Source: a virus
Virus record (IMG/VR): IMGVR_UViG_3300049733_000163
Location: 1 to 46,033 of that record
DNA length: 46,033 nucleotides
Strand: one strand, 5' to 3'
In this document: one piece after another, positions 4,815 through 27,112 of the stretch
Layout of the letters: every line of letters starts with the position of its first letter
How positions within the stretch are numbered: position 1 is the stretch's first letter
Notes under the pieces: model-generated
What the model saw: only the letters and a program-made list of their open reading frames with translations
Told to the model about the DNA's origin: nothing
The model's database searches: none
Program-made: the position numbers and the translations under genes

Positions 4815-4936
4815 CTAGGTTCCCTCCTGTGGAGCGCCTCTCCGTGGACGGGGGCGGAGCCGGGGATCGGCCCACCTTGTTCCCTCCGTCCAAGCCGGTC
4901 CCGCCACGTCAAGGCGGGCGCTCACCGGGTCCGGTT

Positions 4937-5197: not shown

Positions 5198-5201
5198 GGG
5201 G

Positions 5202-5638: not shown

Positions 5639-5904
5639 GCTGTCGCCCTTTCCTTCTCGGTCTCCCACTTGGGGCGGGGGTGGATCTCGGCGTCCGCGAT
5701 GGTCTGGAGGAAGTCTGCGAGGCCCTTGACGTAGCGGGCGTCCACTCGGCTGCGTGGGAAGGAGAACTCGACGCCCTCCAGCCTCCCCTCCTCGTCGTAC
5801 TCGACCGTGAGGTCGAGGGTGTCGTCGTCACCGGGATAGGGACTCGGGATTGAGACCTTGGTTGTCGTGGCGATCCAAGTCCGGCGGATAGGCAGGTGTT
5901 CCAT
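5635..5904 (-). CDS. Hypothetical protein, 89 aa
   Basis: Start at the ATG at 5902-5904 after GAGGAGGGAACG, a strong ribosome site that heads this three-gene run. The sequence starts MEHLPIRRTWIATTTKVSI and is beta-rich, then ends in a helical, charged segment. No family recognised. About 100 bases separate it from the integrase; I see no gene there. Confidence 0.65.
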   Translation of the reverse strand: MEHLPIRRTWIATTTKVSIPSPYPGDDDTLDLTVEYDEEGRLEGVEFSFPRSRVDARYVKGLADFLQTIADAEIHPRPKWETEKERATA

Positions 5905-6004
5905 CGTTCCCTCCTCATCGCGCTCGGCATCCCGGCGACTCACCGGGACCCCGCCGCCGCGTCCCTCCCACTAGGAAGGGGGAGCACGCGATTTGGGCGG
6001 CGTC

Positions 6005-6910
6005 CTAGCGGGTTCGCAGAGCGGGACGGATGACTTCGCTTCCCCTGATCGAGAGGGCCTCGACCGCCCCCCTCAGATCCCCCGCCTCCAGGTGGATGTA
6101 CCTAGCGGTCGTCGTGCTACAGCGGTGCCCCAGCACCGCGCCAATCTTGGGTCCACTCACCCCGGCCCGAGCCAACATCGTCGCGCAGGTGTGCCGCAGC
6201 ATGTACGGGGTCAACTTCGGAAGCCCCGCCTCCCGCGCCAAGGCCCTAAACGGCCTCAGGAACGCGCGGCGGGGCTGAGAGGCATCCAACCCCGGGAAGA
6301 GAGGCGATCTCTCGTCCAGGGGCCTCGGACGGGCCTCTAGCGCCTCCCGTAGAGCCCCGCACATCGGCACCACGCGGGACCGGCGCGTCTTTACCGGGTG
6401 ATCCGGACGGTGCTCGAACCTCACCAGCCCGTTCACCCGGTCCAGGTCGTACCCCCGTAGGTTCAACACCTCCCGGGGCCGGCCCCCCGTGTAGAGGGCG
6501 AGCTCCACGAAGAGCCCGAAGGGATGCCCTCGGGCCGCCTCTAGGAGCCGGGAGACCTCGGAAGGCCCTAGAGCCCTCGGAATGCGCTCCTCGCCCCGTG
6601 GAAGCCTCGCCACGGCCTCTAGGGGGCTTCTCTGAATCACCCCCCAGCCGACAGCCAGCCGCATCACCCGGGAGAGCGTCGCTAGCTCCCGGTTCACGGT
6701 AGCCGGCGAAGCCCCCTCCCCCAGCCTCGCTCGCTTGTACCCCTCTACGTCCCGAGGACCGATCTCCCTAACCGTCCGACTCCCGAAGAAAGGCCCTAGA
6801 TGACGCTCGAGGTGTAGCCGGCGGATGTACCCCCAGCCAGGCGATACGTCGCAAGCCGTCTCCTCTAGAGCGGCCCGAGCGAAGGGCAGGAATAGCCCCT
6901 CAACCTCCAT
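6005..6910 (-). CDS. int: Tyrosine-recombinase integrase
   Basis: 301 residues, the normal length for a phage integrase with a SAM-like N-terminal core-binding domain (about 1-105) and a C-terminal catalytic domain. Catalytic positions by pattern: Arg144 in LYTGGRPREVLNL, Lys174 in HPVKTRRSRV, Arg239 in YMLRHTCATML, His262 in GAVLGHRCST and the nucleophile Tyr271 in TARYIHLEAG. The usual HxLR histidine is Tyr236 here. The ATG follows TAGGAG. An attP-like tRNA-Leu fragment lies about 80 bases upstream of its start, so tRNA integration is likely. CTAG tetramers are far more frequent here than in the structural genes, suggesting a separately acquired module. Confidence 0.93.
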   Translation of the reverse strand: MEVEGLFLPFARAALEETACDVSPGWGYIRRLHLERHLGPFFGSRTVREIGPRDVEGYKRARLGEGASPATVNRELATLSRVMRLAVGWGVIQRSPLEAVARLPRGEERIPRALGPSEVSRLLEAARGHPFGLFVELALYTGGRPREVLNLRGYDLDRVNGLVRFEHRPDHPVKTRRSRVVPMCGALREALEARPRPLDERSPLFPGLDASQPRRAFLRPFRALAREAGLPKLTPYMLRHTCATMLARAGVSGPKIGAVLGHRCSTTTARYIHLEAGDLRGAVEALSIRGSEVIRPALRTR

Positions 6911-6990
6911 CGGCTCCTAGCGCCCTCCCGACCACCGCCCGGGAAGCTTAAGACCCCAGCTCCCCCACTACGGACAGCACCTACTAGGTA

Positions 6991-7048
6991 TGCCGAAGGG
7001 GGGAGTCGAACCCCCACGACCTCGCGGTCACTAGACCCTGAATCTAGC
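6991..7048 (-). other. attP: Candidate attP: 3' part of a tRNA-Leu(CAG) gene
   Basis: Reading the minus strand, the sequence contains a 5-bp anticodon stem (CTAGA/TCTAG, 7031-7047) with loop TTCAGGG (anticodon CAG), a long variable arm typical of tRNA-Leu, a T-arm GGGGG-TTCGACT-CCCCC and the 3' acceptor strand ending TTCGGCA at 6991. No CCA is encoded. The matching 5' acceptor strand and D-arm are missing upstream, so it is not a whole tRNA. A tRNA 3' half next to an integrase is the standard form of a phage attP that rebuilds the host tRNA on insertion. The exact crossover cannot be read from one sequence. Confidence 0.8.
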
Positions 7049-7150
7049 AACCGCCCTGCGAACCCACGTTTTCACAGAGCGACGCGAAGGACGGCACCAA
7101 CTCCGTCCACCTACAACGGCAGGGAATCTACAGCATTCCCCTGCGTCCCG

Positions 7151-7636
7151 TCAAGAACTTTCTTTCGGCAACTGCGAAGCGTTATCTTGCACAACCTTAG
7201 ACGCGGGGGAGGTTCCACCGCTAGGACCCTCAACCCCAGCCATCGGGAGAGCAGGAGGCTCAACCGCCTTGCCAGCCTCAACCGCAGGAGGAGCCCCAGC
7301 CTTCGCTCGGGCCCCTGCCCTAGCGCCCCCAACTACCCGCCCGTTCCTCACCAGCGGAGAGCGTAGAACTTGCATCAGGAATCGGGCCGCATCCCAATCC
7401 CCAGCCCGCGCCTTCTTCGTGGCTAGCGGTACGACCCTAGCCCAAAATACCCGGTCAGCGTAGAGAATCGCCCTCCCCCTAATCGCCCCCGTGCGGTCGG
7501 GGTCGATAGGCTTCCCCGTGGCAATGTCGGGAGCGTTGTAGAGCTTGTCCCGCTTGGCCTTCCCAATCGCTCGCCTACCAGGTTGAGCAGCCGCAGCCGC
7601 AGGGGGCTCTAGGACGGCGCTAGGGGCCGCTTCCAT
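7151..7636 (-). CDS. Hypothetical Ala-rich protein, 161 aa
   Basis: The N-terminus is Ala/Pro-rich. The central part (GRAILYADRVFWARVVPLAT to DWDAARFLMQVLRSP, residues about 53-95) is basic and helical; the C-terminal third is a low-complexity Ala/Pro tail. The ATG follows a TAGGA site. It lies directly beyond the attP-like fragment and shares the CTAG-rich codon use of the integrase, so it probably came with that module. It could be a DNA-binding helper such as an excisionase, but no signature supports this. I considered a small terminase and cannot support it. Confidence 0.6.
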   Translation of the reverse strand: MEAAPSAVLEPPAAAAAQPGRRAIGKAKRDKLYNAPDIATGKPIDPDRTGAIRGRAILYADRVFWARVVPLATKKARAGDWDAARFLMQVLRSPLVRNGRVVGGARAGARAKAGAPPAVEAGKAVEPPALPMAGVEGPSGGTSPASKVVQDNASQLPKESS

Positions 7637-11766: not shown

Positions 11767-13802
11767 AGCCAACGCCCCGACTCGTGCGAATCCTCCTTCC
11801 TTTCCTACTCCCTGCGATCGGGGCGCTGGCCTTTGGTTGCGGGACGCAGAAGCCGGAGGCTGCTTTCGAGACGCTCGCTCTTGCGGCGAGCTCCAAGCCC
11901 CCGCAGCCGGACGTGGAGCCCACCGACACGCAGCCGGCGCCGGGGCCCGAGCGGGCCTTCCGCGTCTTCAACGGGACGGGGCTCGTTCGCTCCGAGTGGG
12001 CGCCGGTGGGCCTCCCCGTCGAGAAGGGTGCGCTGCAACTGAGCGGGTCCATCCTGATCGGGACGGGACGGTTCGCCTTCAAGCCCCTCGAGCGATGGAA
12101 CGACGGGACGGTTCGTCGCGCGCTGATCGACTTCCCGGCGGCTCTCGGCCCCTACGAGGAGAGGCGCATCCTCTACCAGCCGACGAACAAGCCGCCCGTT
12201 GGGGGGTTCTACCCTGCTCTCCCGGGAGGGATGCTCGTCGAGGCGATCGTGAATGGGACGACCGTCCCCTTCGATTCCTGGACGACGCTCTACACGAACG
12301 CGACGCGATGGGAAGGGCTCGCCGCCGAGCAGATCGGGACGGCGGCCTCGGGCCTCACGCTCTCTCTTTACTCGACGGCCTGGACGGGGCAGCGGTTCGG
12401 CAGAGTCGTATTCGTACTCGGGAACGACTGGCCGATTCGCTCGAGCGCCGCGACCTTCCCCGTCTCTGACGTGCGCGTGAGGTTCTCGGGCGTCTACGCG
12501 GCTCCTCTCTTCGGCTGGGCGCACGGGATCCAGACCGTGACGGCCTATCAGGAGTTCCGGCTTCCGGTCTCTGGCGGAGTCATCGGGGATGGAGCGAGGT
12601 GGGCAACCGCGTTCACCTGGGCGGATCCTTCGGGGCCAATCGAGGCGGCGTACGCCTCGTCGCTCTATCCCCTTTTCGGATACCCCGAGCCCCCGATCGA
12701 GGACTGGACGAGGGCCTACGGGCTCTACGGCCGCGTGAGGCGCGGCGTCCTCACCGACAAGCAGGGCTACTTCTCGCGGGGGCATTGGGAGACGCATCGG
12801 GACTTCTGGTTGAGCAACTGTCCGAACTCGCCGTGGACCGGGCACGGCTACTGGACACAGCAGGAGGGCTCTACAGGTGGACACCCCGACTGGTCGCCAG
12901 CGCCGACGCTCCCGGACGATCTCGCTCTCTCGCCGCGCGGGATCCATCGGATGCTCCAACTGTCTCTCTCTCGAACTCGCACTCCAGATCATTTTCGGAT
13001 TGCCGTCTGGAACGAACCGCCTTCCGCTGGCGCCTTCAACGGCTGGGTTTCTCCGCCTCGTCGAGAGCAGACTGACTACAACGAACATCTCTCGGGATCG
13101 AACGGGTGGAGCGGGTCCGATGACGCCCACAGGGAAGAGAACTTCCGGCTCCGCGCCTACGAGCTGACCGGCGACCCCTCGATCTACGACGAGTTGCAGC
13201 AGACGGGGCGGATGGCGTGCCTCCGGGCGAAGCCGGGCGGAGGCTACGGCGAGGGCCGCGACATGGCCCGCACGCTCCAACGCAAGACGATCGCGTGGCT
13301 CACGGGGAACGACGCGGATCGGGCTCAAGTCTCCTCGAACCTCGTGCCCTGGGCGACGTGGCTCAACACGTCGTTCCCCTCTCTCTCGACGCCCGACGGA
13401 GCCCTCTACTCGCTTTCGATCCTCTCGCCGGGAATGGGAAAATATGGGAGCCACGGCTTCAATCCAGGGGGACAGTCCTACATCTTCTTCCCCTTCTCGG
13501 AGTCCCACGTCTCCGGCACGCTCGCGATGGCTCACCGCCTGACGGAGATCCCGGCGCTGGCGAATGCGGCGGAGAAAGCGCGATTGGAACTCACCCGCTT
13601 CTGCCGTGACGACGGGATGATCTGGGACGCGATTCTCCAGGACGGCACGGGGCGCTTCCCGCGAGGCGGGAACCTTTGGGCCTACCCCGGGCTGTCGGCG
13701 TATCGGGCGACCTCCACGAAGATCGAGGCTTGCGCGGCGGCGTTAGAGGCCGCGTACGCGAACTCGACCAACTTTGACGAGATCGGATATTTACAGCCTT
13801 GA
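11763..13802 (+). CDS. Large lipoprotein resembling PcRGLX/YetA-type polysaccharide lyases
   Basis: 679 residues. N-terminal signal (about 1-26) ends in AFGC, a somewhat atypical lipobox; a Pro-rich linker runs to about residue 65. Residues about 67-140 (PVGLPVEKGALQLSG, then LERWNDGTVRRALIDF) look like the RIFT-barrel N-terminal module of exo-rhamnogalacturonan-lyase-like proteins, where a conserved RWxDGSxxWxLxDF occurs. The middle and end are aromatic- and His-rich and could form an alpha-barrel catalytic domain. It starts by ATGA overlap and ends by TTGA overlap. A lipid anchor is unexpected for a virion depolymerase and suggests action at the host cell surface. Family assignment moderate; substrate unknown. 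Confidence 0.55.
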   Translation: MKPTPRLVRILLPFLLPAIGALAFGCGTQKPEAAFETLALAASSKPPQPDVEPTDTQPAPGPERAFRVFNGTGLVRSEWAPVGLPVEKGALQLSGSILIGTGRFAFKPLERWNDGTVRRALIDFPAALGPYEERRILYQPTNKPPVGGFYPALPGGMLVEAIVNGTTVPFDSWTTLYTNATRWEGLAAEQIGTAASGLTLSLYSTAWTGQRFGRVVFVLGNDWPIRSSAATFPVSDVRVRFSGVYAAPLFGWAHGIQTVTAYQEFRLPVSGGVIGDGARWATAFTWADPSGPIEAAYASSLYPLFGYPEPPIEDWTRAYGLYGRVRRGVLTDKQGYFSRGHWETHRDFWLSNCPNSPWTGHGYWTQQEGSTGGHPDWSPAPTLPDDLALSPRGIHRMLQLSLSRTRTPDHFRIAVWNEPPSAGAFNGWVSPPRREQTDYNEHLSGSNGWSGSDDAHREENFRLRAYELTGDPSIYDELQQTGRMACLRAKPGGGYGEGRDMARTLQRKTIAWLTGNDADRAQVSSNLVPWATWLNTSFPSLSTPDGALYSLSILSPGMGKYGSHGFNPGGQSYIFFPFSESHVSGTLAMAHRLTEIPALANAAEKARLELTRFCRDDGMIWDAILQDGTGRFPRGGNLWAYPGLSAYRATSTKIEACAAALEAAYANSTNFDEIGYLQP

Positions 13803-14626
13803 GCGACCCTCGCCGCTCTCGTCTCGGCTGGCGCCCCGACCTCCCGGACATCCGGGACTTCTCGCCGCAGATCCTCCCCGTGAAAGCGTCGGCGCCACTC
13901 GAAGCGGGCAAGACCGTGGACCTGCGCCCGTGGTGCGCCCCCATCGAGGATCAAGGCGACCTTGGCTCCTGCACGGCGAACGCCGCGGTGGGCCTCCTCG
14001 AATACTACGAGAAGCGGGCGCACGGCTCCTTCGTCAACGCCTCCCGCCTCTTTCTCTACAAGGCGACTCGAAACCTCATGGGCGTCACGGGCGACACCGG
14101 CGCCTACATGCGCGACACCATGAAGGCGCTCGTGCTGTTCGGGGCGCCACCCGAGGCTCACTACCCCTACGACATCGCGCGCTTCGACCTCGAGCCGAAG
14201 TCCATGCACTACGCGATGGCGGGACGCTTCCGGACCGTCCGCTACTACCGCCACGACCCGGCGGGAAAGCCGCTGGCGGAGGTCCTCCCCTCCGTCAAGC
14301 GCCACCTTTCGCTCGGCTTCCCCTCGATGTTCGGCTTCCCGGTCTACGACTCCTTCCCCTCGCCGGGAGACGGGAAGATGGACATCCCCTACCCCTCACC
14401 GTGGGAGTCGTTGCTGGGCGGGCATGCGGTCGTCGCCTGCGGCTACGACGACGGGCGGATCATCGGCGGGAAGCCAGGGGCGCTCCTGATCCGCAACTCC
14501 TGGGGGACGAGCTGGGGGCAGGGCGGCTACGGCTGGATGCCCTACGAGTACGTCACCTCGGGGCTCGCCGAGGATTGGTGGAGTCTCACGCGAGCGGAGT
14601 ACGTCAACACGGAACTCTTCAAGTGA
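13799..14626 (+). CDS. Papain-family (C1A) cysteine peptidase
   Basis: 275 residues. It has the full papain set: oxyanion Gln52 and nucleophile Cys58 in IEDQGDLGSCTANA, His209 in GGHAVVACGYDD and Asn233 in IRNSWGTSWGQGGYGW. The N-terminal GWRPDLPDIRD motif is common in bacterial members of this family. The TTG start overlaps the previous stop as TTGA; no signal peptide is seen. It lies between two exported proteins. It could cut a host surface or peptidoglycan peptide, or process virion proteins; the sequence does not decide. As no classical endolysin is present, a lysis role deserves thought. Confidence 0.88.
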   Translation: MSDPRRSRLGWRPDLPDIRDFSPQILPVKASAPLEAGKTVDLRPWCAPIEDQGDLGSCTANAAVGLLEYYEKRAHGSFVNASRLFLYKATRNLMGVTGDTGAYMRDTMKALVLFGAPPEAHYPYDIARFDLEPKSMHYAMAGRFRTVRYYRHDPAGKPLAEVLPSVKRHLSLGFPSMFGFPVYDSFPSPGDGKMDIPYPSPWESLLGGHAVVACGYDDGRIIGGKPGALLIRNSWGTSWGQGGYGWMPYEYVTSGLAEDWWSLTRAEYVNTELFK

Positions 14627-14991
14627 AGCGACTCCTCATCGCTCTCCTCTTCGGCTCGGCGCTCGGCCTCCTCGCCGTCGAAGCCGTGACGCCGCTGCCG
14701 CGCTTTCAGACCACGCCCTTCGTCACCGCCTGGATCGAGGAGGACCCCTGCGAGGTCCGCATCGAAGCGCAGGCACTCGCTTCCACGGACCCGCTCACCC
14801 TCCACGCCTACTGGCTCACGCCCACGGGCGAGACCGTCTACGGCCTGATCCAAGCCAAGCGCGTCGGGGGCGAGGTCTGGCTCTCGGTCACCTGGCCCTC
14901 GAAGCCGGGCCAGCCTTGGTGGGCTCGACTCGACTGGAAGGGTGGCCCCGAGGACGGAATCACCAGCGGGCACACGGTCTCCTGTCCATGA
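14623..14991 (+). CDS. Secreted protein, 122 aa
   Basis: GTG start in a GTGA overlap with the peptidase gene. Signal peptide MKRLLIALLFGSALGLLAVE, then a beta-sandwich-like domain (CEVRIEAQALASTD, TLHAYWLTPTGETVYGL, VWLSVTWP) with two cysteines (about residues 42 and 121) that could form a disulfide. Coupled to the papain-like gene, it may be its partner or inhibitor; this is speculation. Confidence 0.6.
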   Translation: MKRLLIALLFGSALGLLAVEAVTPLPRFQTTPFVTAWIEEDPCEVRIEAQALASTDPLTLHAYWLTPTGETVYGLIQAKRVGGEVWLSVTWPSKPGQPWWARLDWKGGPEDGITSGHTVSCP

Positions 14992-15197
14992 AGCCGTCCG
15001 GCGACCTTCGCCACTCCTCACACGGCGCAACTCCCTCGCGTCCGTTCGACCCGAAACGTAGGGGGGGTCCCCGGGTAACCGGGGAGGACGGCCCTTTGAA
15101 TCGAAGCTCCCGGCTCGGTTTCTCACTCCTGATCCATCATCTGAACTCTCCCTCCTTACCACCTACGTCCGAGCCGGGAGCCTTTCTCGCGTGGTGA
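14988..15197 (+). CDS. Doubtful ORF, 69 aa
   Basis: Begins MKPSGDLRHSSHGATPSRPF in an ATGA overlap and ends by overlapping the terminase start. The sequence is low in complexity and two inverted repeats run through it, so the stretch may rather be a non-coding control or packaging region. Confidence 0.25.
   Translation: MKPSGDLRHSSHGATPSRPFDPKRRGGPRVTGEDGPLNRSSRLGFSLLIHHLNSPSLPPTSEPGAFLAW
15068..15085. promoter_or_regulatory. Hairpin TCCCCGG-GTAA-CCGGGGA
   Basis: A perfect 7-bp stem with a GNRA-type GTAA loop, 106 bases before the terminase start. No U-run follows, so it is not a classical terminator. It is part of the structured region before the terminase. Confidence 0.5.
15106..15181. 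repeat. 13-base inverted repeat upstream of the terminase
   Basis: GCTCCCGGCTCGG at 15106-15118 is the exact reverse complement of 15169-15181, with 50 bases between. Both arms are followed within two bases by TTTCTC. Its position next to the terminase gene makes it a candidate packaging recognition site or regulatory structure. No function is shown. Confidence 0.6.
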
Positions 15198-16144
15198 GCA
15201 AGGATCCCCCGGGCTACCTGCGGTGGGTGAACTGGCGCCCGTGGGTGGCGTGTTCCGCGTGCGGTCCCGGGAAGAACTGCGCGAGCGCACAGCACAAGGC
15301 CGACGGCCTCACCCGCTCCCCGCAGCGCGACTTCATCGAAGCGTGGCTCAACGGGAAGGAGTCCTGGCTCACGGGCGGAGGGTCGCTGGGGAAGACGGAA
15401 GCCCTCGCTTGGATCATCGCCTCGGTCGTTCGCGGCTACGTCCCCGGCCCCTACCACCGCGACATGCCGAAGCCCGCGGTCGTCTGGTACGTCGCCCCCG
15501 ATTCGATCGTCGCCAAGGGCTCCGTCGAGGACAAGTTGTTCTACGGGAAGACGACGCTCGGACAGGCCCCCTTCATCGACCCCGAGGAAGTCGTCCAATG
15601 GGCGACGAAGGTGAAGGGCGCGCAAGAGCCCTATGTCTTCGACACGGGAAGCGAGTTCCTCGTGCGGGGGACCTCGGGGCTCGCGAGGAAGTTGAAGGCG
15701 AAGGGGAGACGCCCGAGCAGCGAGGCGCTTTCCCTCACCGCCGCCCGCATCACGCTCGGGGTCTTGGACGAGCCTTGCCCCGAGGCGGCCTACGACGAGA
15801 TGCAGATGCGCCTTTCCCAAGGGCTCCCCCTCATCGGGGCCGCCACCTTCCCGCCGAAGTCAACCGCGGTTGGCTGGTGGAACCGTCGCGTCTACCGGCC
15901 CTTCAAGGAGGGCAGACGCACCCGCCTCAACGTCTCGGAAGCGACGACCCGGGACAACCCCTACATCAGCGCGGAGAACTACGAGCGGATGCGGGAAGCC
16001 TACTCGCACGACAAGATGCTCGAGGAGGCCCGCCTCCACGGGACGATCTACGCTTTGGAAGGCTCCAGCCTCTTCTCGGAAGAAGCGGGCGAGAAGATGG
16101 AGAGGACCGTCATGGAGCCTTTGTCCGTTGCGACCTACGAATGA
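15191..16144 (+). CDS. terL: Terminase large subunit, ATPase part (split)
   Basis: 317 residues. Walker A is GGGSLGKT (Gly62-Thr69) and Walker B is ITLGVLDEP with Asp193-Glu194. A coupling-motif-like GAATF follows GLPLI. A CSACGPGKNC cysteine cluster lies near the N-terminus. This is a complete packaging-motor ATPase domain, and it ends (LEGSSLFSEEAG ... ATYE) about where the linker to the nuclease normally begins. The nuclease is encoded separately at 16414. Two GTG codons (15191, 15194) can serve as start; the second overlaps the upstream ORF as GTGA. Confidence 0.85.
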   Translation: MVSKDPPGYLRWVNWRPWVACSACGPGKNCASAQHKADGLTRSPQRDFIEAWLNGKESWLTGGGSLGKTEALAWIIASVVRGYVPGPYHRDMPKPAVVWYVAPDSIVAKGSVEDKLFYGKTTLGQAPFIDPEEVVQWATKVKGAQEPYVFDTGSEFLVRGTSGLARKLKAKGRRPSSEALSLTAARITLGVLDEPCPEAAYDEMQMRLSQGLPLIGAATFPPKSTAVGWWNRRVYRPFKEGRRTRLNVSEATTRDNPYISAENYERMREAYSHDKMLEEARLHGTIYALEGSSLFSEEAGEKMERTVMEPLSVATYE

Positions 16145-16165
16145 GTGAGGTAGAACCCAACGCCT

Positions 16166-16414
16166 ATGAAGCCTGACCACGTTTCCAATCCCTCGAAGAG
16201 CGCAGCGATCAACCCGACGAACCCCTACGCCGCCGCCCCGGTGCCGACTCAGGGCCTCCCCAACGCGCAGCCCGGGACGGGCGTCCCCTCCGGGATCATG
16301 CCCTGCCCTGTCGAGACCAACTCGGCTCCCTCGCGGGGGCTCGAGTCCGCGCAGGTGTCGATCGACGCCGCGAACCCCAAGGCCCCCGAGGGGATCAGCG
16401 CCGTCTCCGGCTAG
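16166..16414 (+). CDS. Proline-rich ORF between the two terminase genes, 82 aa
   Basis: Starts MKPDHVSNPSKSAAINPTNP. It is low in complexity, Pro/Ala/Ser-rich and probably disordered. It is in the same frame as the ATPase gene but cut off from it by TGA and then TAG (16142-16162), so readthrough fusion is unlikely. It overlaps the nuclease start by one base (TAGTG). It could be a small structural protein or the remnant of an inserted gene. Too short for an intron and with no intein motifs. Confidence 0.5.
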   Translation: MKPDHVSNPSKSAAINPTNPYAAAPVPTQGLPNAQPGTGVPSGIMPCPVETNSAPSRGLESAQVSIDAANPKAPEGISAVSG

Positions 16415-17133
16415 TGACCCGTCTCCGCGCCGTCGCCCGCCACTACCTTCCCCCCGGGACGAAGGGGCGCTTCATCCTCGGGTGCGACCCCTCGGAGGGC
16501 GTCGAGGGGGGGAACCCCTGCGCGGTCGTCGTGATTCGCGCGGAGGACTGGAACGTCGCGGCGGTCTTGGACGGCTGGCTCGCTCCCCATAGGCTTGCCC
16601 TCGCCATCGCCTCGCTTGCCATGCTCTACGCGAGGGGCGATGTCGGCGGCAAGCCCATCGTCGCCATCGAGAACAACACCTTCGGGATCGCCGTACTCCA
16701 GGAACTTCGGGGCTCGCAGTTGAACCTCTACGGGTCCTACATCGCCTCTCGAAACGACTTCAAACTCGGCTTCCCCACCTACCACTCCAGCCGCGACAAC
16801 GCGATCGAGCAGATGCGTCTTGCAGGCGAGAAGTGGGGGATCGCCGTCCACGACAGGAAGTTGTGGGAGCAGGTCCGCCCCGGGAACCTGATCTACAGCG
16901 AGGAGGGAAAGATGGGGACGGCCGATGGCCCCGACGACCTCGCCATCGCTCTCGCGATTGCCTGCTCGGTGCGGGCCGAGAAGTACGGGGACAAGCCCAT
17001 CGCGGTCCCGACGGACGCGGCACCCCCCGTCATCGTGAGGGATCGCTCGAGCTGGATCTGGGAACAGGAAGCGCAGCGCGTGAAGTCTCTGGAGACGGAC
17101 GCCGCCGAGCCGGAGTGGGTCGCCTACGCTTGA
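16414..17133 (+). CDS. Terminase large subunit, nuclease part (split)
   Basis: 239 residues from a GTG start. It has the RNase-H-fold acidic set of terminase nucleases: Asp25 in FILGCDPSEGVEGGNP, Glu86 in VAIENNTFG and Asp174/175 in DGPDDLAIALAIA. It has no ATPase motifs. With the 317-residue ATPase part it sums to 556 residues, the normal length of a whole large terminase. So the enzyme probably works as two chains, unless one part is dead. It is followed closely by a small membrane protein and the portal. Confidence 0.85.
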   Translation: MTRLRAVARHYLPPGTKGRFILGCDPSEGVEGGNPCAVVVIRAEDWNVAAVLDGWLAPHRLALAIASLAMLYARGDVGGKPIVAIENNTFGIAVLQELRGSQLNLYGSYIASRNDFKLGFPTYHSSRDNAIEQMRLAGEKWGIAVHDRKLWEQVRPGNLIYSEEGKMGTADGPDDLAIALAIACSVRAEKYGDKPIAVPTDAAPPVIVRDRSSWIWEQEAQRVKSLETDAAEPEWVAYA

Positions 17134-17140
17134 GGTAGAC

Positions 17141-17419
17141 ATGGACACCGCCGTTCTTCTCTCGGGAATCCTTCTCGCGGCCTGCGCTCTCGCGGCGATG
17201 GCGCTCTCGAACCGCTCGAAGGACCGCACCATCGAGCGGCTTGTCCTCTTGAGGAAGTCCAAGAGCTCGCGTGAGTACGGCTTCGCCCGCGCCATCGAAC
17301 GCACGCGAAGCGAGACCGTGGCGCTCCCGCCTCCAGGCGAGAACGGTGGCCCCATGCGTCGGGAAGAGGAGCCCCTTCCCGACTCCGAGACGGCGGCGAT
17401 GTTCAACCGCCCCGGCTAG
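17141..17419 (+). CDS. Small membrane protein, 92 aa
   Basis: One N-terminal transmembrane segment (AVLLSGILLAACALAAMALS), then a basic and finally acidic soluble tail. The ATG follows GAGGTAGAC; the 15-base stretch GAGGTAGACATGGAC recurs at the start of the gene at 25563. It sits between the terminase nuclease and the portal. Function unknown. Confidence 0.6.
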   Translation: MDTAVLLSGILLAACALAAMALSNRSKDRTIERLVLLRKSKSSREYGFARAIERTRSETVALPPPGENGGPMRREEEPLPDSETAAMFNRPG

Positions 17420-17422
17420 TAG

Positions 17423-19450
17423 ATGGTCCAGATCGCCTCCACCGAGATCGAAGCGGATCCGAAGGGAGCCGCGCTCTATCCCCCCGGGTCGGCTGAGGCG
17501 ATCTTCCTCGACTACGTTCGCCGCTACGGACGCTACTCGCTGCTGTGGACGCAGAAAGCCTACGTCAACCGCTCGATCTTCCTCAACCTCGCCTTCGTCC
17601 GCGGATTCCAGGACCTCTACGTCTCCCGGGACCATCCCGATCTCCAGGAAATCCCGATCCCGAAGTCGAGGCAGTACCTCACCCGCAACCACGTCCAGCG
17701 CGTCGTCGATGCGATCGTGGGGCTCATGCAGGAGTTTCGCCCCATCGTCCAGGCGTACCCGATGGAGGACACGCTGGACGCGAAGTACGCCGCCATCGCG
17801 GTAACGAACGTCCTTCGTGCCTACCACCACCTCCTTCGCCTAGACGACAAGTGGGACGAGACGATCGAGTGGGCCGCGACCACGGGCAACTCCTTCCTCA
17901 CGACCTCATGGAACGCCATGAGCGGGGAGGACATCCTCACCGTCCAGCCCACCCCCGACGGGCAGATCGCCGTGCGACAGATGAAGTCCGGCGACATCGA
18001 CGCGCAGGTCGTGGGGCCGCTCGAACTCTACGTCCCTTTCGCGGCGACCGACCTCGAGCCGCTTCGCTGCCCCTGGTGGGCGAGGCTCCACATGATCTCT
18101 CGCGAGGGGGCGCGAGGGATGTTCGGGGAAGTCGCGGCCTCCCTCCCCTCTGCCAAGGGATTCCCCCTCTACGGGCAGGAGTCCTGGGAGCGAAAGATCC
18201 TCCAGATGGGAGCGGGCGTCTCCGGCAAGTCGCTCGGCTTCTACACCTCGGATTACCAGAACACGGGGCTCGACTCCGACTACATCCCGCTCACGCAACT
18301 TCACATGCTCCCGCAAGGGCCGAACGCTCGCGGCCTGCATGGGATCGAGAGCGGGGGCTACGTTCTGGACGTGGGGCCTTGCGATCACGACGACATCGTG
18401 AAGTTCGGCTTCCGCTATCAGCCGGGGCAGTTCTGGTGGAAGGGGGTCGTCGATGACCTCATGCACCCGCAGCGGGCGATCAACGACACGGTGCGCCGCC
18501 GCCTCGAGTGGAGGCAGAAGGCGTACACCGCCCGCGTGCTCGCGCAGAAGGGGGTCCGGTTCAAGGAACACCGGATGGAGAACGGGCAGGGAACCGTGCT
18601 CGAGTGGGAGGGCGATGTCGCCAACGCCACCAAGCCCGAAGCCTTCGGCTTCCCCAACCCCGATCCAGAGTTTCACCACGAGCTCGCGGAGATGATGGCG
18701 GACTTCGACCGCATCGCGAAGGTCCACGCATCCTGGGCCGGGGGGCCTGCCGAGAAGAACATCCGCTCGGGCGATCAGCTCGAAATCATGCAGATCGGGA
18801 CGCAGCGCACCCACTCCCCGATCTTGAAGGGTCTCAAGCGGTCCTGGGTGAAGGTCTACGAGAACATCCTCTCGCTCCTGCGGCGCCACGCGGTTGACGA
18901 GAGGACGCTGCCGGTGGGGTCGGGCGAGGAGTTCGTCCGCTTCCGCGCGCACGACCTCATGCGGAAGGTCAGGCTCGAGGTCGATCTCGTCCCCAACTCC
19001 ATGACTTCGCAGACGATCGCCAAGGGGCACATCGACCACCTCGTTCAGTTCGGCTTCCTCCTCCCCCAGACTCCAGCCGACCGCGCGATCGTCCTCAAGG
19101 GGTACAACCTCCCCGGCTCCGAACTCGCCGTCCGCACCATGACGGCGGATGTTGAACTCCAGGAACGCGAGATCCTCAAGATGATCGGGGACCCAATCCA
19201 TCAGACGCAGGGCCAAGAGGTCCCCATCAACGACAACGACGTTCACCCCGATCACATCCGCGTCACCGACCTCTTCCGCAAGTCCCCGGAGTGGGAGCGT
19301 TTGGACCCAGAATCCCAATCCCGTATCCTGCGCCACGATGCGGCGCACAGGATGGCCCAAGCCGAGCAGTTGAAGTTGGCTATGGAAATGGCTGTTGACA
19401 GCGGTCCGCAAGGGGCAGTAGAAACCCCGGCACCAGCCGCTAAAGGTTGA
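17423..19450 (+). CDS. Portal protein (podovirus/P22-like)
   Basis: 675 residues, placed directly after the terminase genes. Portal-like features: an N-terminal segment that meets the tail end (PIPKSRQYLTRNHVQRVVDA), a central region with FRYQPGQFWWKGVVDDLMHP followed by INDTVRRRLEWRQK (typical 'position, order, clip' region of P22-like portals) and a long helical C-terminus. Length is close to the 725 residues of the P22 portal and larger than T7-type portals. Identified by context plus this pattern; I cannot run a search. Confidence 0.85.
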   Translation: MVQIASTEIEADPKGAALYPPGSAEAIFLDYVRRYGRYSLLWTQKAYVNRSIFLNLAFVRGFQDLYVSRDHPDLQEIPIPKSRQYLTRNHVQRVVDAIVGLMQEFRPIVQAYPMEDTLDAKYAAIAVTNVLRAYHHLLRLDDKWDETIEWAATTGNSFLTTSWNAMSGEDILTVQPTPDGQIAVRQMKSGDIDAQVVGPLELYVPFAATDLEPLRCPWWARLHMISREGARGMFGEVAASLPSAKGFPLYGQESWERKILQMGAGVSGKSLGFYTSDYQNTGLDSDYIPLTQLHMLPQGPNARGLHGIESGGYVLDVGPCDHDDIVKFGFRYQPGQFWWKGVVDDLMHPQRAINDTVRRRLEWRQKAYTARVLAQKGVRFKEHRMENGQGTVLEWEGDVANATKPEAFGFPNPDPEFHHELAEMMADFDRIAKVHASWAGGPAEKNIRSGDQLEIMQIGTQRTHSPILKGLKRSWVKVYENILSLLRRHAVDERTLPVGSGEEFVRFRAHDLMRKVRLEVDLVPNSMTSQTIAKGHIDHLVQFGFLLPQTPADRAIVLKGYNLPGSELAVRTMTADVELQEREILKMIGDPIHQTQGQEVPINDNDVHPDHIRVTDLFRKSPEWERLDPESQSRILRHDAAHRMAQAEQLKLAMEMAVDSGPQGAVETPAPAAKG

Positions 19451-19452
19451 GC

Positions 19453-20121
19453 ATGGACGAGACAACGGCGCAGACCACGGAGGCGCTTCCCCCGGCGGGC
19501 CTATCCGCAAAAGGCGAGAAGGCTCGACAGACGTGGATGAGGAAGAGGGCTGATCGCTACGCCTCCGAGCAGAAGGCGACGCTTCGGCAACTCGATGTCA
19601 TCAAGGACATGATCGTCGCCGTCATGGGGACGGAGATGGGGAAGGTGAAAGCGAGCGTGGACTCGCTCGCCAAGCGAGTCGAGGCCGTGGAGACCGTCGG
19701 GTCCCCCTCCATCACCGTCCAGACGAAGGACGGGCGGGTCCTCTCGACGCCTGGAGTCGGGGCCAAGCAGACGCTTCCCGCGAGGGAGATCAAGTACCCC
19801 ACGCCCACGCTCCCCGAGGGGACGACCGCTCATTGGATCGAGTGTCCCAACGGGCACGTCGCGGCTTGGTCCACGGGCGAACACCCCTCGACGCCGGAAG
19901 TCATCGACCTCATCTCGGGTCCGAACTGGCATCGGCTCCGCCCCGGTCAGGACGACAGGCGAGCCGCGATCCGTGGCGTCATCCCTCCCTGCAACTTCTG
20001 TGGCGCGGCGCTCCCGGCGAACGCCGCGGGAGTCGGGAGCTCGGTCTTCAACGTCAACGCCCGCTATGTCCGCGAGGGGCCTCCGCCCAACACGGACGAG
20101 CACGGCTTCCCGGTGAGGTGA
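19453..20121 (+). CDS. Hypothetical virion-region protein with zinc site
   Basis: 222 residues from the ATG at 19453 (MDETTAQTTEALPPAGLSAK), chosen over a TTG two codons earlier because of AAAGGTTGAGC before it. The N-terminal half contains a coiled-coil (ATLRQLDVIKDMIVAVMG to SLAKRVEAVE). The C-terminal half has CPNGH and CNFCGAALP, a possible zinc ribbon. It lies between portal and scaffold-like genes. Confidence 0.6.
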   Translation: MDETTAQTTEALPPAGLSAKGEKARQTWMRKRADRYASEQKATLRQLDVIKDMIVAVMGTEMGKVKASVDSLAKRVEAVETVGSPSITVQTKDGRVLSTPGVGAKQTLPAREIKYPTPTLPEGTTAHWIECPNGHVAAWSTGEHPSTPEVIDLISGPNWHRLRPGQDDRRAAIRGVIPPCNFCGAALPANAAGVGSSVFNVNARYVREGPPPNTDEHGFPVR

Positions 20122-20125
20122 GACG

Positions 20126-20908
20126 ATGCCCGAGGAACCGAATCCCACCGCCACGCCGCCCGCAGCCGCGCCGCCGACTCCTGCCGCTGGCGCCCCCGCG
20201 TCCCCGGCCTCGACGCCGCCGCCGGACTCGGACGGCTGGATCGACGAGCAGTTGGAGCGCAATCCGGGCCTCGCGCTGGGGATCAACCGACTCATGGAGA
20301 CCTTCAAGGCAGACCCGGGCGTGCTGACGAGGCTCGAGGGCGTCTTCAACCCCGCACCCCCCGCGCCCTCGGCCCCGACTCCTACGCTCCCCGCCGCGGC
20401 GACGACCCCTCCCGCCACCGTCCCCTCGACACCCGACATCACGGCACAGGTGCTCGCGGCCCTCGGGGGCAAGGAAGCCCTCGACTCCCTCAAGGCTGCC
20501 GCGACTCGGGAGGCCGAGCGTGAGGCCAAGGCCGACATGGATCGGACCTACGGCCGTCTCACCGCCGAGGCGAAGCCCATCGCGCTGAGGGTCCACCCCA
20601 CCTACTTCGAGGGGGCGATCGGGGATGCCGTCGCGCGCCTTGGAGTCGAGCGTTCGCTTCGCACGGGGGAACGCCTGGAGGTCGCCACCGAAGCCGAGGC
20701 CAAGGCGTTTCTCGCCGCTTCGGGCGAGATCGGCAAGAAGTACGTCGAGGCTCTCGACCCGGGCGGGCGCCGCCTCATCCTCACGGCGGGTCTCCAGGGA
20801 GGTCCGCCTCCCAACTTCGACCCCTCGAAGATGACGAACAAGCAGCAGGAGGACGCCTTCGCGGGGATGCTCTCCGACGAGATGACCAAGGCCCGCTTCG
20901 GCCTCTGA
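20126..20908 (+). CDS. Scaffold-like protein
   Basis: 260 residues immediately before the capsid gene. The first 35 residues are Pro/Ala-rich, a second Pro/Ala/Thr linker spans about 72-100, and the rest is charged and helical (LDSLKAAATREAEREAKADM; AFLAASGEIGKKYVEAL), ending in NKQQEDAFAGMLSDEM. This makeup and gene order fit a podovirus scaffolding protein. No protease motif is seen. The next 71 bases (20909-20979) are a gap, comparatively AT-rich. Confidence 0.7.
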   Translation: MPEEPNPTATPPAAAPPTPAAGAPASPASTPPPDSDGWIDEQLERNPGLALGINRLMETFKADPGVLTRLEGVFNPAPPAPSAPTPTLPAAATTPPATVPSTPDITAQVLAALGGKEALDSLKAAATREAEREAKADMDRTYGRLTAEAKPIALRVHPTYFEGAIGDAVARLGVERSLRTGERLEVATEAEAKAFLAASGEIGKKYVEALDPGGRRLILTAGLQGGPPPNFDPSKMTNKQQEDAFAGMLSDEMTKARFGL

Positions 20909-20979
20909 CCGATCTACAGGAACCACCAGCCGAGATTCGTTAGCCACCAAACAAAGCGAAGGCTGAATGAGATGAAATA

Positions 20980-22410
20980 GTGCCGACGACTGGATCTGCC
21001 GGACCCGCAATCACGGCATTCAACAACGCGCTCAAGCGCCAGCAGACGCTCCCGATGATGTACGACCGGGTGAACCGTGTGCTGGACTTCCTTCGGCCCG
21101 CTGGCCTCATGTCCCCGACGCTGGATGTCTTCGGGCAGGGGCTCGATGTCCCGCTGATTCTCAGGGGACCCCGCTCCGCTGTCGGTAACAGGGCGGAGCG
21201 TGAGCCGATGCCCGACACGAACGTCCCCACCTTCGCCAAGGGCCAGTCCTTCACGAAGAGGACGTTCTTCTACTTCGACGTGACCGAGGAGCAGATGGCG
21301 GCCTCCGCCTCCCGCGAAGGGTCGTGGGAGCGGGCGCAGGCGATCTACGTCTTCGAGGGCGCGCAGGAGGTCGGGGACCGCATCCAGACCTACTCCTTCC
21401 TCGACGGCTCGGCGCGGCTTTGCCGTCTCACGACGAACGCGACCAACGTGGCGAACTCCGTCATCACGGTCGCGGACGCGGGCGGACCGGCGAACTCGCC
21501 TGCCGCCGCCGACGAGCAGGGCGCTTTCTACCTGAAGCCCGGCGATCTCGTTTCCGCCGCGGTGCCTGGGGTGACTCCCACGTTCCGCACGGGGGTCGCG
21601 CAGATCGTCAGCATCAACCGCGATGTCACGCCGAACACGGTGACGCTCGATGGGAACTTCTCCACCGTCGCGGCGCCGTGGGTGGCGAACGACTACCTCG
21701 TCTTCTCGGGGTTCAGCGGCGCCCCGGCTGGGGCCGCAACGAGAATCGCGCTCGCCGCAGCCAACGTCGGCCAATACACCGATTGCGGGGCGGGGACGCA
21801 GAGCGGAGGGAAGGCGCCCGAGGGCCTCTACCGCTGGTTCTCGGACGTGAACAACTACGAGTTTGCGACCACGCTCGGCAACCCCCTGACGGTCGCCACG
21901 GCCGACAACTGGGCCGGGTTCGTGTTGAACGACTCGGCGGCTCCCGCGCCCTTCGACGTTCAGAAGTTTCACCGCATGGTCTTGACGATCGTGCGGCGCT
22001 TCGGCGAGAAGCCCTCGCGCTTCGTCTCATCGCACGGGGTCTCCATCTCGATCGCCGAGTCGCTGTTCACCCCGGACAAGCGGTACAACGACACGAGCCG
22101 GGCCGACAAGCTCGGGATCGACTTCAAGAGCATGAACATCGACGGCGTCGATCTCATGTTCTCGCGGTCCTGCCCGCCGCAGACCGGCTTCATGTATTGC
22201 GGCCGGGAGGACTGTCTCGCCCCCAACCAGCAAGGCCCGCCGCATTGGGCGGGGATGGACGGCAACGTCCTTCACCTCGTCCCGCAGACCGGGACGCAGT
22301 ACGAGGGCATCCTGATCTTCCCGTGGAACCTGGTTTCCCGTGCGCGCACGGGCGGCTCCATCTGGCGTGGCATCCGCGAGACCGCGAAGGTCGCGGACAT
22401 CTCGATCTAA
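20980..22410 (+). CDS. Major capsid protein
   Basis: 476 residues. The GTG start follows a GAGATGA stretch. Position after scaffold and portal and before structural genes, length and content fit an HK97-fold coat protein with an inserted domain (about residues 145-260, rich in Ala/Gly/Val). The sequence includes TFFYFDVTEEQMAASASREG and, near the end, GILIFPWNLVSRARTGGSIW. A strong hairpin follows the stop. The call rests mainly on synteny and overall look. Confidence 0.8.
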   Translation: MPTTGSAGPAITAFNNALKRQQTLPMMYDRVNRVLDFLRPAGLMSPTLDVFGQGLDVPLILRGPRSAVGNRAEREPMPDTNVPTFAKGQSFTKRTFFYFDVTEEQMAASASREGSWERAQAIYVFEGAQEVGDRIQTYSFLDGSARLCRLTTNATNVANSVITVADAGGPANSPAAADEQGAFYLKPGDLVSAAVPGVTPTFRTGVAQIVSINRDVTPNTVTLDGNFSTVAAPWVANDYLVFSGFSGAPAGAATRIALAAANVGQYTDCGAGTQSGGKAPEGLYRWFSDVNNYEFATTLGNPLTVATADNWAGFVLNDSAAPAPFDVQKFHRMVLTIVRRFGEKPSRFVSSHGVSISIAESLFTPDKRYNDTSRADKLGIDFKSMNIDGVDLMFSRSCPPQTGFMYCGREDCLAPNQQGPPHWAGMDGNVLHLVPQTGTQYEGILIFPWNLVSRARTGGSIWRGIRETAKVADISI

Positions 22411-22424
22411 CCTGACGGGGCAAC

Positions 22425-22448
22425 GGGGGAGGGGATCGCCCCTCCCCC
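22425..22448 (+). terminator. Perfect 10-bp hairpin after the capsid gene
   Basis: GGGGGAGGGG-ATCG-CCCCTCCCCC, 14 bases after the capsid stop. It lacks a U-run, so it may be a partial terminator or an mRNA-stabilising end that lifts capsid expression over downstream genes. It cannot be decided from sequence. Confidence 0.6.
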
Positions 22449-22470
22449 ACAGCCCCGAAGCGAGAAAGAC

Positions 22471-23472
22471 ATGCCCATTCCGGAAAGAGGCGCAGGGGGG
22501 CTCCTTCGGATGCACCCCTACCGCTTCACCATCTTCCCCGCCACGAACTCGGCGTGGCTCATCAGCACGAACGATGGGACGCCCCGCACGATCCTCAACA
22601 GCGGGTTCGGGACCACGAACGGGGCCTCGACGCTCACGCAGGGGCGCCTTCTCCAGTTCCCGAGGACCCCGACGATCGCGCTCGTGTCTTCAGGCGGGGC
22701 CGGTACTCGCCGTCTCGTGGCGACCATCAGTTACCACGACATGTTCGACAACGTGTACGTGGAGACGTGGGACACCGGGAACGTGACGACGATCTCGACG
22801 GCCTACCACCTCCCGACGAACCATTGCTGCAATGGGCTGGTGGACTTCCTTCGCATCGAGACCGGGACGAGCCTCCAGGCTTCGGACCTGATCCAGCTCG
22901 GCCCGGGCGTCCCGGCTGCCTGGAACGCGACCCCGAACTTCGGTCTCCTCCAGCAGATCAAGCACGGCGTTCCCTGGACTCCGAGGCGGCCTCCGCGTCA
23001 GGAGCGATACACCGTCCCGATCACCTCCTCGACGAACGCGACCCCGATCGTTCTCACGGTCCCCTCGGGGCACGGCGTTTTCACGGGCGACCAGATCATC
23101 ATTCAGAACCATCTCGTCAACACGAACGCGAACGGCTCCTACATCGCGAAGGCCACCTCCGGCACCACGATCACTCTCGGCCAGCCGAAGTTCCCCTACG
23201 CTGACGTGGTGGGGAACGGCGTGGGTGGGGCGACGGGAGAGGTCGTCGTCGCTCGAGGTGGAATGCTCGACTTCGACAGCGGGGCGATCCTCGTCAACTT
23301 CGGATCTCACCTCGACGATCCGGCGGCGGGGTCGCTCGTCGGCGGGCTCGGATCGGGCTTTGCGATTCGGTGGGACGCTGCCGAGAACGCGGTTGTCTTC
23401 ATCGACCCCGCGAGCGCCCCGCTTCCTCAGACCCTCCAGTCGAACATCGTCGATCTCGCCTTCCGCGCCTAG
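22471..23472 (+). CDS. Structural protein with FCCH-like beta domain (decoration candidate)
   Basis: 333 residues in the head cluster. Residues about 182-250 (TSSTNATPIVLTVPSGHGVF, then TGDQIIIQNHLVNTNANGSY) form a small beta-module often seen in phage structural proteins (FCCH-like; pattern HGxxTGDxVxIxxxxxNxxxNGxY). A related copy lies in the protein at 24127. The rest is beta-rich. It may be a capsid decoration or head-fibre protein. Confidence 0.6.
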   Translation: MPIPERGAGGLLRMHPYRFTIFPATNSAWLISTNDGTPRTILNSGFGTTNGASTLTQGRLLQFPRTPTIALVSSGGAGTRRLVATISYHDMFDNVYVETWDTGNVTTISTAYHLPTNHCCNGLVDFLRIETGTSLQASDLIQLGPGVPAAWNATPNFGLLQQIKHGVPWTPRRPPRQERYTVPITSSTNATPIVLTVPSGHGVFTGDQIIIQNHLVNTNANGSYIAKATSGTTITLGQPKFPYADVVGNGVGGATGEVVVARGGMLDFDSGAILVNFGSHLDDPAAGSLVGGLGSGFAIRWDAAENAVVFIDPASAPLPQTLQSNIVDLAFRA

Positions 23473-23475
23473 CCG

Positions 23476-24111
23476 ATGGCTCTCAGCTTCCTCCACTTCA
23501 ACTACGGCCGCACGACTGCCTCGGGCGTTCACCCCGACTGGCGTCGCGACACCGATACCGTCACGCATCTCACCACCTGGAAGGCGATGGGGCGCGACTT
23601 CGAGGGATGGAGAGAGGGCGGAGCCTTTGGCGTGGGAGATCGCGCGAAGGCTATCCGCCGCATCGTCGGGGTCCCGGTCGCAGCCGCCACGACGTATCTG
23701 ATCGTCTTCCTCGAGGCGGGGGCCTACTTCCTCAAGTGGTACGGCCCCAACCGCCTCCGGGGACGCCTCCAGCAGTTCAGGCCGCAGTACGAGACGAGCC
23801 TTACTCGCACGAACCCCCAAGCCTACGATGTGGAGGGTTCCTACTTCGCGAACGGAGTCAACACGAAGTTCTCCGGCGATGAGGTGGCGGGGAACCTCTG
23901 CGATCCGAACGAAGCCACGGGCTTCACCCTGGGCGACGTTTCCGGTGGAGCTCCGGGTCCGCTCACTCCGACGGAGGTGACCCCGAACACGCTCGCGCAC
24001 TTCGCGATGGACACGAACGAGATCCGGCGCGTTTGGGTTCCGAAGCTGATGAAGATTGGCTTCGCGACGGTCACGGCGCAAGGCGACTTGGGGATCGAGA
24101 CGGCCGGCTAG
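23476..24111 (+). CDS. Hypothetical structural protein, 211 aa
   Basis: Starts MALSFLHFNYGRTTASGVHP. One hydrophobic stretch (IVGVPVAAATTYLIVFLEAG) is probably buried rather than membrane-spanning. It lies between two proteins that share an FCCH-like domain. The ribosome site is weak, so translation may be coupled to the upstream gene (stop 3 bases before). Confidence 0.6.
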   Translation: MALSFLHFNYGRTTASGVHPDWRRDTDTVTHLTTWKAMGRDFEGWREGGAFGVGDRAKAIRRIVGVPVAAATTYLIVFLEAGAYFLKWYGPNRLRGRLQQFRPQYETSLTRTNPQAYDVEGSYFANGVNTKFSGDEVAGNLCDPNEATGFTLGDVSGGAPGPLTPTEVTPNTLAHFAMDTNEIRRVWVPKLMKIGFATVTAQGDLGIETAG

Positions 24112-24126
24112 CTCGGGCATCGCTCC

Positions 24127-25560
24127 GTGCCCATCATCGCCCGAAATCTCCACGAGATCCTTCGGCAGGGTCTCGGGGACGAGACGTTCGTCGGGCCTCA
24201 CAACTATATGCCGATGCCGCTCATGCCCGATCAGGCGAACACGACGGGCTGGACGATGGCGGCTCCGCGCGTAAGGCTTGGCGCGGGCGGGCTGGGGACG
24301 AGTCCGGGAGGGGACTACCTGATCCGCGGCCTTCCCGACATGCCAGGGGGCGCCGGGGCTGGGGCGCCCGGGCACGACTCTATGGCGATCAAGGTCGGGG
24401 CGATCTCGCTCCCGGCGACCTACTTCTTCCGTGGCGCTCCGAAGGCAGATTCCGCGGTGAGCCCGGAGAGCTTCATCACGGGGGCGCGCAGGCTCGCCTT
24501 CCATGTCGCAGGCGACATCGGCGCAAACCCCACTCTCGTCTTCGATGTCTACGGACGCACCCCTCGAGGCGTGGACATCATCGAGACGGTGACTCTCCAG
24601 GGCCTCACCAACGAGAAACAGCCCGGCTGGACGGCTTGGGGCTACGACAACGCCCTGTTCCCGAACATCCCTGCCGGGAACAACCACGGCAACGACCTCG
24701 CGGCGAGGCCCATCGCGAGCGCCTTCTACAACCCCAACGGCGGCACCGAGATCTACGTCGAGATCGCGGGCGCTACGAACGCGACCCCCATCGTCATCGA
24801 CACGACACCGACCGCGCATGGGCTCGCGACGGATGACGTGGTGACGATCGGCGGAGTCCTCGGGAACACGGCAGCGAACGGGGTCTGGGCGGTCACCGTC
24901 AGCGACGGGACGCACTTCTCGTTGAAGACGATCGGGCCGGGCATCCCCGTCCCAGGCAACGGCGTCTACGCCGCGAGCGCGCACGACTGGCTCGTGAAGG
25001 GTCCTCTTCCCAACAACTTCTGCCTCGGAAGGGGCGGCGGCGGCATCAACAACGCGAACTGGGCTCGCCTTCCGGTGACGCAGGCGTTCCAGACGAAGAA
25101 CGCCTGGAGCCGCCTCTACAAGATGGTGATTCGGGAACGGTCGGGAACGAACTCCGACACCATCCTCATCCCCAACTACTGCACGATCGACTTCGGACTT
25201 CGCACGCGCATCGACTCGATCAATGACATTGAGGAGGGGAGCGTCCTGTGCTTCCCCTACTGGACGCCCTTCGCGAATCTCGCACTCCCGACCATCCAGC
25301 AGATCGCCTCCATGCTGATCTACCCGCTCTTCAACCCGGTCCACAAGCGGATGCTGAGGTTCGAGCAGGAGTTCAACATCGTGTCCTTCGCGGGAAGCGA
25401 TGGAACCGTCTCGCACCCGCGGGCCATGAAGAATCCTCACGTCGTTTCCGGCTCCAGTTCGGAGTTCGATTTGGTCGGCGAGATGCCCCCCGGCTTCTTC
25501 GATTGGGTGTGGGTGACCTCGCTCTGCGTGGCGCCGGGGAAGGTTCTCTTCCCGAGGTAG
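24127..25560 (+). CDS. Structural protein with FCCH-like beta domain, 477 aa
   Basis: GTG start (MPIIARNLHEILRQGLGDET); the site before it is weak. Residues about 213-285 (ATNATPIVIDTTPTAHGLAT, then DDVVTIGGVLGNTAANGVWA) repeat the module of the protein at 22471. The remainder is Gly- and aromatic-rich with no signature I know. Likely a head or vertex protein. Confidence 0.6.
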   Translation: MPIIARNLHEILRQGLGDETFVGPHNYMPMPLMPDQANTTGWTMAAPRVRLGAGGLGTSPGGDYLIRGLPDMPGGAGAGAPGHDSMAIKVGAISLPATYFFRGAPKADSAVSPESFITGARRLAFHVAGDIGANPTLVFDVYGRTPRGVDIIETVTLQGLTNEKQPGWTAWGYDNALFPNIPAGNNHGNDLAARPIASAFYNPNGGTEIYVEIAGATNATPIVIDTTPTAHGLATDDVVTIGGVLGNTAANGVWAVTVSDGTHFSLKTIGPGIPVPGNGVYAASAHDWLVKGPLPNNFCLGRGGGGINNANWARLPVTQAFQTKNAWSRLYKMVIRERSGTNSDTILIPNYCTIDFGLRTRIDSINDIEEGSVLCFPYWTPFANLALPTIQQIASMLIYPLFNPVHKRMLRFEQEFNIVSFAGSDGTVSHPRAMKNPHVVSGSSSEFDLVGEMPPGFFDWVWVTSLCVAPGKVLFPR

Positions 25561-25562
25561 AC

Positions 25563-25892
25563 ATGGACGGACCTGTCAAACTCGTCCAGGGCGCTCCCAC
25601 GAGGGAGAACCTGGAGTTCATCCGCAACTGGAAGGAGTCCGGCAACTTCCACAGGGCGCTCGTGAAGGGCAAGCGTCACGAGCTGGAGGAGGAGAAGCGC
25701 AGGGACGAGAGGGAGATCGACGACATGACCTACTACTTCAAGGGGGAGAAGCCCTACTGCCTCTACAACCGCACGATCGCTGGCGGCGGGAGGAACGTGA
25801 AGCGCCCGCCCCTTCGCATCAAGCGCACGGAAGACGGCAAGGCGGTGTGGGCCGAGGTCTCCCCTGGACGCTGGAGGCTCGTTACCGAGTGA
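25563..25892 (+). CDS. Hypothetical protein, 109 aa
   Basis: ATG at 25563 after GAGGTAGAC, a start region also found at 17141. MDGPVKLVQGAPTRENLEFI leads to a highly charged helix (RHELEEEKRRDEREIDDMTY) and a basic C-terminal beta part. It overlaps the adaptor gene as GTGA. A small head-completion protein is plausible. Confidence 0.6.
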   Translation: MDGPVKLVQGAPTRENLEFIRNWKESGNFHRALVKGKRHELEEEKRRDEREIDDMTYYFKGEKPYCLYNRTIAGGGRNVKRPPLRIKRTEDGKAVWAEVSPGRWRLVTE

Positions 25893-26773: not shown

Positions 26774-26777
26774 GCAC

Positions 26778-26879: not shown

Positions 26880-26883
26880 ATGG

Positions 26884-27111: not shown

Positions 27112-27112
27112 G

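Follow-up and report, generated by a model that had tools for sequence, protein, structure and literature searches.

ATP hydrolysis in one domain of a terminase moves DNA gripped by the other, and a covalent hinge is the usual explanation. The large terminase (TerL) is a standard marker in phage taxonomy. In T4, DNA binding, translocation and cutting all require the C-terminal domain, which the hinge connects to the ATPase (PMC8589836), so separating the two domains might be costly. A TerL encoded by two ORFs is characteristic of most Arthrobacter phages of cluster AY, which do replicate; BlueShadow with gp2 and gp3 is an example (PMC12820723). In Bastillevirinae, the TerL coding sequence is broken in the DNA and a self-splicing intron restores one protein (PMC11878797).

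We analyzed a 46,033-base IMG/VR virus record, called the window below (the whole stretch of DNA at its full length). It is a tailed-phage genome with intact portal, major head and tail genes, and it contains one TerL, spread over an ATPase gene and a nuclease gene. The locus is laid out as follows.

15191 to 16144, plus strand: TerL ATPase chain, GTG start, 317 aa, P22/LUZ24/T5-type
16166 to 16414, plus strand: Pro/Ala-rich ORF between the two chains, ATG start, 82 aa
16412 to 16416, plus strand: TAGTG stop/start overlap of the 82-aa ORF and the nuclease, read in the sequence
16414 to 17133, plus strand: TerL nuclease chain, GTG start, 239 aa, T4 gp17-type RNase H fold
17423 to 19450, plus strand: P22-type portal protein, onto which a terminase docks (Pfam P22_portal, E 9.3e-7; phrog_156 portal, E 1.4e-14)

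Re-reading the sequence gave the same ORF positions, frames and spacing as the initial annotation. The two chains add up to 556 residues (317 + 239), and 270 bases separate the end of the ATPase stop from the nuclease start. As had been claimed, the 82-aa ORF continues in the frame of the ATPase after a TGA and a TAG, which lie at 16142 and 16151. The nuclease frame is −1 relative to theirs, and with two stops and a frame change no single base error can join ATPase and nuclease, again as annotated. We looked for an ATG, GTG or TTG start in the nuclease frame upstream of 16414 and found none. One base is shared by the nuclease GTG and the TAG that ends the 82-aa ORF, and this TAGTG arrangement suggests that translation of the two is likely coupled. 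Rather than sharing one polypeptide, the two TerL domains are thus divided by two frames, two stops and a coding ORF, as separate neighboring genes.

Codon usage, scored by training on the phage's own large genes, gave +0.42 for the ATPase, +0.33 for the 82-aa ORF and +0.43 for the nuclease in these frames, and negative scores in the other two forward frames for all three. GC3 was 0.89, 0.92 and 0.89, respectively. Given its in-frame score and GC3, the 82-aa ORF is a real coding gene. The description of this ORF between the halves as Pro-rich was correct: of the 82 residues in the product, 14 are Pro and 12 are Ala, and the gene shows the codon bias of the phage. Pfam, PHROGs and a further sequence search returned no relatives of the product. 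The protein could serve as a tether or as a small virion protein in its own right, or its gene could be the insertion that broke TerL.

The ATPase ORF had been read as a terminase domain that carries Walker A and B motifs and ends at the hinge, and the profile comparisons agree. Walker A (GGGSLGKT) occupies residues 62-69, and Walker B (LGVLDEP) is also present, as in a TerL-type P-loop ATPase. Against a profile built from five fused TerLs (Shocker, Jasmine, ctJAH347, Vibrio 1.262.O and CRP-2), residues 43-292 scored 96.6% in hhalign (E 6.8e-10), the aligned region running from before Walker A up to the hinge, while five shuffled controls reached ≤0.5%. An HMM of the ATPase halves of those five TerLs matched with an E value of 9e-15. 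When the ATPase was aligned with three of the five, G63, G67, K68, T69, D193 and E194 were invariant. A direct Pfam search gave a sub-threshold match to Terminase_3, and the TerL of Microbacterium phage Shocker matched with E 0.1 in a database search and 1e-7 in a pairwise comparison. Scanning viral contigs with the ATPase, portal and capsid retrieved an identical contig (described below) and no further relatives.

The second ORF had been assigned as an RNase H nuclease with the acidic residues D25, E86 and D174/D175. All four residues were invariant in a family alignment of nine sequences. Compared with fused TerLs in hhalign, the nuclease scored 98.1% (E 9e-14) with eight sequences and 98.4% (E 8e-15) with ten, and in related viral contigs the homologous domain forms the C-terminal part of a fused TerL. 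Pfam and NCBIfam models gave no match, and PHROGs gave a weak TerL match (phrog_2, E 0.0016). The AlphaFold2 model (pLDDT 67, pTM 0.72) was matched by Foldseek to T4 gp17 (3cpe, E 1.9e-7) and G20c (5m1f, E 2e-7), as well as to the P74-26 and RB49 TerL nucleases. The chain thus combines an RNase H fold with the D, E, D catalytic residues of a TerL nuclease, which upholds the assignment. A scan of genome contigs with the nuclease found no relatives. From the profiles and the catalytic residues, the claim that TerL is split with both halves apparently intact was borne out, and the break is at the normal interdomain hinge.

The initial annotation had also taken the two ORFs together as one normal TerL cut in two. 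This was not borne out, as the halves match different TerL lineages. We defined family A as the five fused TerLs listed above and family B as ten viral contigs with fused TerL, leaving the window out of both; the families were picked because each resembles one window half, and the panel is small. The window ATPase matched family A (E 9e-15) and had no B score, whereas the nuclease matched family B (E 5e-19) and had no A score. In leave-one-out tests of five A and five B members, each half matched the family of its TerL but did not match the second family, the weakest score being 45.6% for the N-half of CRP-2. Among fused TerLs outside family building, Piccoletto, the T5-like STWB21, LUZ24, Asis and the P22-like SE10 were A in both halves, and the T4 gp17-like Miro and PSTCR6 were B in both halves. 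Altogether, the halves were congruent in 17/17 held-out fused TerLs.

The window departs from this pattern in both directions: its ATPase but not its nuclease falls in the P22/LUZ24/T5-type lineage, and its nuclease but not its ATPase falls in the T4 gp17-type lineage. The P22-type portal next door agrees with the ATPase lineage. By these profile scores the TerL looks mosaic, and its two halves probably descend from different ancestors. Since they match different lineages, an exchange of the nuclease (or of the ATPase) probably took place; exchange of the nuclease would be the simplest reading. Identity between the window halves and their relatives is only about 25%, and families A and B both lie distantly within one large PHROG, phrog_2. 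With this, the small panel and the way the families were chosen, a fused TerL that combines these two lineages may exist but have escaped sampling.

To place the locus, we compared it with fused, split and interrupted terminases. The fused P22/LUZ24/T5-type TerLs (Shocker gp17, Jasmine gp11, SE10) share a homologous ATPase domain with the window, and in Shocker and Jasmine the portal also adjoins TerL; they differ in being one chain whose nuclease is of a different lineage from the window nuclease and does not match it. Conversely, the fused T4 gp17-type TerLs (Miro, PSTCR6, viral contigs L002-L032) have a homologous nuclease with the same catalytic residues and fold, but they are one chain with an ATPase that does not match that of the window. 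Like the Bastillevirinae genes, the window has a TerL coding sequence broken in the DNA, but it carries no intron signature. The cluster AY phages, compared by description only, resemble the window in having the ATPase and nuclease domains in separate neighboring genes (PMC12820723). In contrast to the window, their gp2 and gp3 are numbered consecutively, so no ORF lies between them as annotated, and the genome has 3' overhangs (PMC12820723).

An independent split TerL lies at 4626-7163 in the metagenomic podovirus ctLwi270 (MW202554), an unrelated phage. The gene order is ATPase, small ORF (62 aa), nuclease and portal, and the nuclease start overlaps the stop of the small ORF by one base, both as in the window. 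Unlike in the window, both halves fall in a single lineage (phrog_38, T7-type NF033889), and the ATPase carries a 235-aa intein-like insert. This insert covers residues 278-512, with a Cys start, a LAGLIDADG-like motif and an Asn end before Cys (NF038136 matches 278-514), and it accounts for the 551-aa length of the ATPase ORF. The 62-aa ORF is unrelated to the 82-aa ORF of the window.

The initial annotation had called a motor working as two chains unusual. Such motors are indeed rare, but with the cluster AY phages (PMC12820723) and ctLwi270 they are not new. It had also proposed looking for the same split in relatives: the other loci that we found with a window-type nuclease have a fused TerL in 14/14 cases, including one 5'-truncated locus in which ATPase sequence is still present and three near-identical contigs, and the split recurred in the unrelated ctLwi270. 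The split itself has precedent. The apparent mosaic origin is what this analysis adds, and it is the more interesting part of the finding. Several short TerL families in PHROGs align to the nuclease domain alone or to the ATPase domain alone, namely phrog_10250 (228 aa), phrog_4758 (243 aa), phrog_5653 and phrog_24361, a hint that known phages contain further split terminases. In Escherichia phage VAH1 (MK373792, 1267-2582), a T5-like TerL is annotated as two ORFs, of 310 aa and 131 aa, that overlap by 7 bases; the break is apparently inside the nuclease and is probably a frameshift or sequencing error, a different kind of split. We also considered Arthrobacter phage Jasmine as a second split case (TerL, small ORF, 226-aa ORF, portal) and rejected it, since gp11 is a full fused TerL with phrog_2 over both domains.

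The two ends of the window repeat each other with some divergence: 1-612 and 44964-46033 share stretches of 96-100% identity that are broken by indels and a divergent copy. The contig looks as if it closes on itself across two strain variants, and the genome is therefore probably near-complete. A six-frame translation of the window, searched with both domain HMMs for a second TerL of either family, gave nothing above noise beyond the two ORFs, so these are not remnants next to a complete TerL from one of the two families. Another IMG/VR contig, IMGVR_UViG_3300045927_000037, was 100% identical in all stretches compared, which together span 12339-30407 of the window. This makes a random assembly or sequencing error unlikely, although both contigs may have been recovered from one site or one sample.

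We consider it likely, from homology, motifs and gene context, that the sole TerL of this phage consists of two chains, a P22/LUZ24/T5-type ATPase and a T4 gp17-type nuclease, that join non-covalently and do the work of one TerL. The two polypeptides would be made from one gene cluster. The ATPase chain would dock on the P22-type portal, and the nuclease chain would bind it non-covalently in the motor ring, with the same geometry as in a fused TerL. The nuclease chain would cut the concatemer and probably grip DNA too, as in T4. The association, the activity, the translational coupling and the order of events in the origin of this TerL are what we infer. A natural motor with its domains on separate chains from different lineages would test the need for a covalent hinge, and it would show that terminase domains are exchangeable between lineages. 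A split, mosaic TerL would also be missed or misplaced by whole-gene methods.

The most serious competitor leaves the split as it is and treats the mosaic as merely apparent: an old, poorly sampled third TerL lineage would have this ATPase and this nuclease, simply split, without any exchange. That both families sit distantly in phrog_2 and that only one contig is known with this ATPase-nuclease pair speak for it. Against this, all fused TerLs tested, including the held-out P22-, LUZ24-, T5- and T4-like ones, gave nil cross-family scores in both halves, and each half of the window TerL has a strong score in one family; we regard a third lineage as possible but doubtful. Another reading accepts the split but not a single motor, with the ATPase translocating alone and a separate nuclease recruited just for cuts. 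RNase H nucleases such as resolvases do act alone. The motor protein of phi29 packages with no nuclease activity, but it still has the two-domain architecture (PMC8589836). Moreover, the window nuclease groups with gp17 nucleases that are housed in TerL, and its gene sits between the ATPase and the portal, so we judge this reading unlikely and a weaker alternative to the non-covalent two-chain motor. The two-chain motor might also include the 82-aa protein as a third component that holds the ATPase and nuclease together or times cutting, replacing the covalent hinge. We think such a hybrid improbable; if true, nuclease modules would be exchangeable between terminase lineages.

Less probable still is that a small intron, a frameshift or another RNA-level or recoding event joins the ORFs into one TerL protein. 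Group I introns do occur in TerL genes of other phages (PMC11878797), but Rfam detected no introns between ATPase and nuclease at curated or relaxed thresholds, and the 270 bases between them are coding and have a start and a stop of their own, rather than forming a group I or II intron between exons. Ribosomes shifting by −1 within the 82-aa ORF would enter the nuclease frame, open from 16177 onward; however, this would join only the 82-aa ORF to the nuclease, with two stops still parting it from the ATPase, and inspection by eye revealed no standard slippery heptamer where the 82-aa ORF ends. We hold it extremely unlikely that the terminase is decaying or dead, or the split an assembly artefact. 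The record is metagenome-derived and has no isolate, and some deposited TerLs, such as that of VAH1, are broken. These points are set against the identical second contig, the two in-frame stops, frame change and coding ORF between the halves, the intact catalytic residues despite deep divergence, and the intact portal, major head and tail genes.

Elsewhere in the window, a papain-family cysteine protease lies upstream of the terminase (13799-14626; Pfam Peptidase_C1, E 5.5e-13; phrog_16701), preceded by a 679-aa ORF without a family match. Farther downstream are a 2031-aa ORF at 36632-42727, for which Pfam gave no match, and an 1834-aa ORF at 27113-32617 with Laminin_G_3-like stretches. A Sak4-like ssDNA annealing protein is encoded on the minus strand at 3903-4814 (phrog_124, E 2.4e-18). 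Two ORFs, at 22471-23472 and 24127-25560, both match phrog_584, a family of major tail proteins (E 6e-6 and 6e-4), a possible tail tube duplication.
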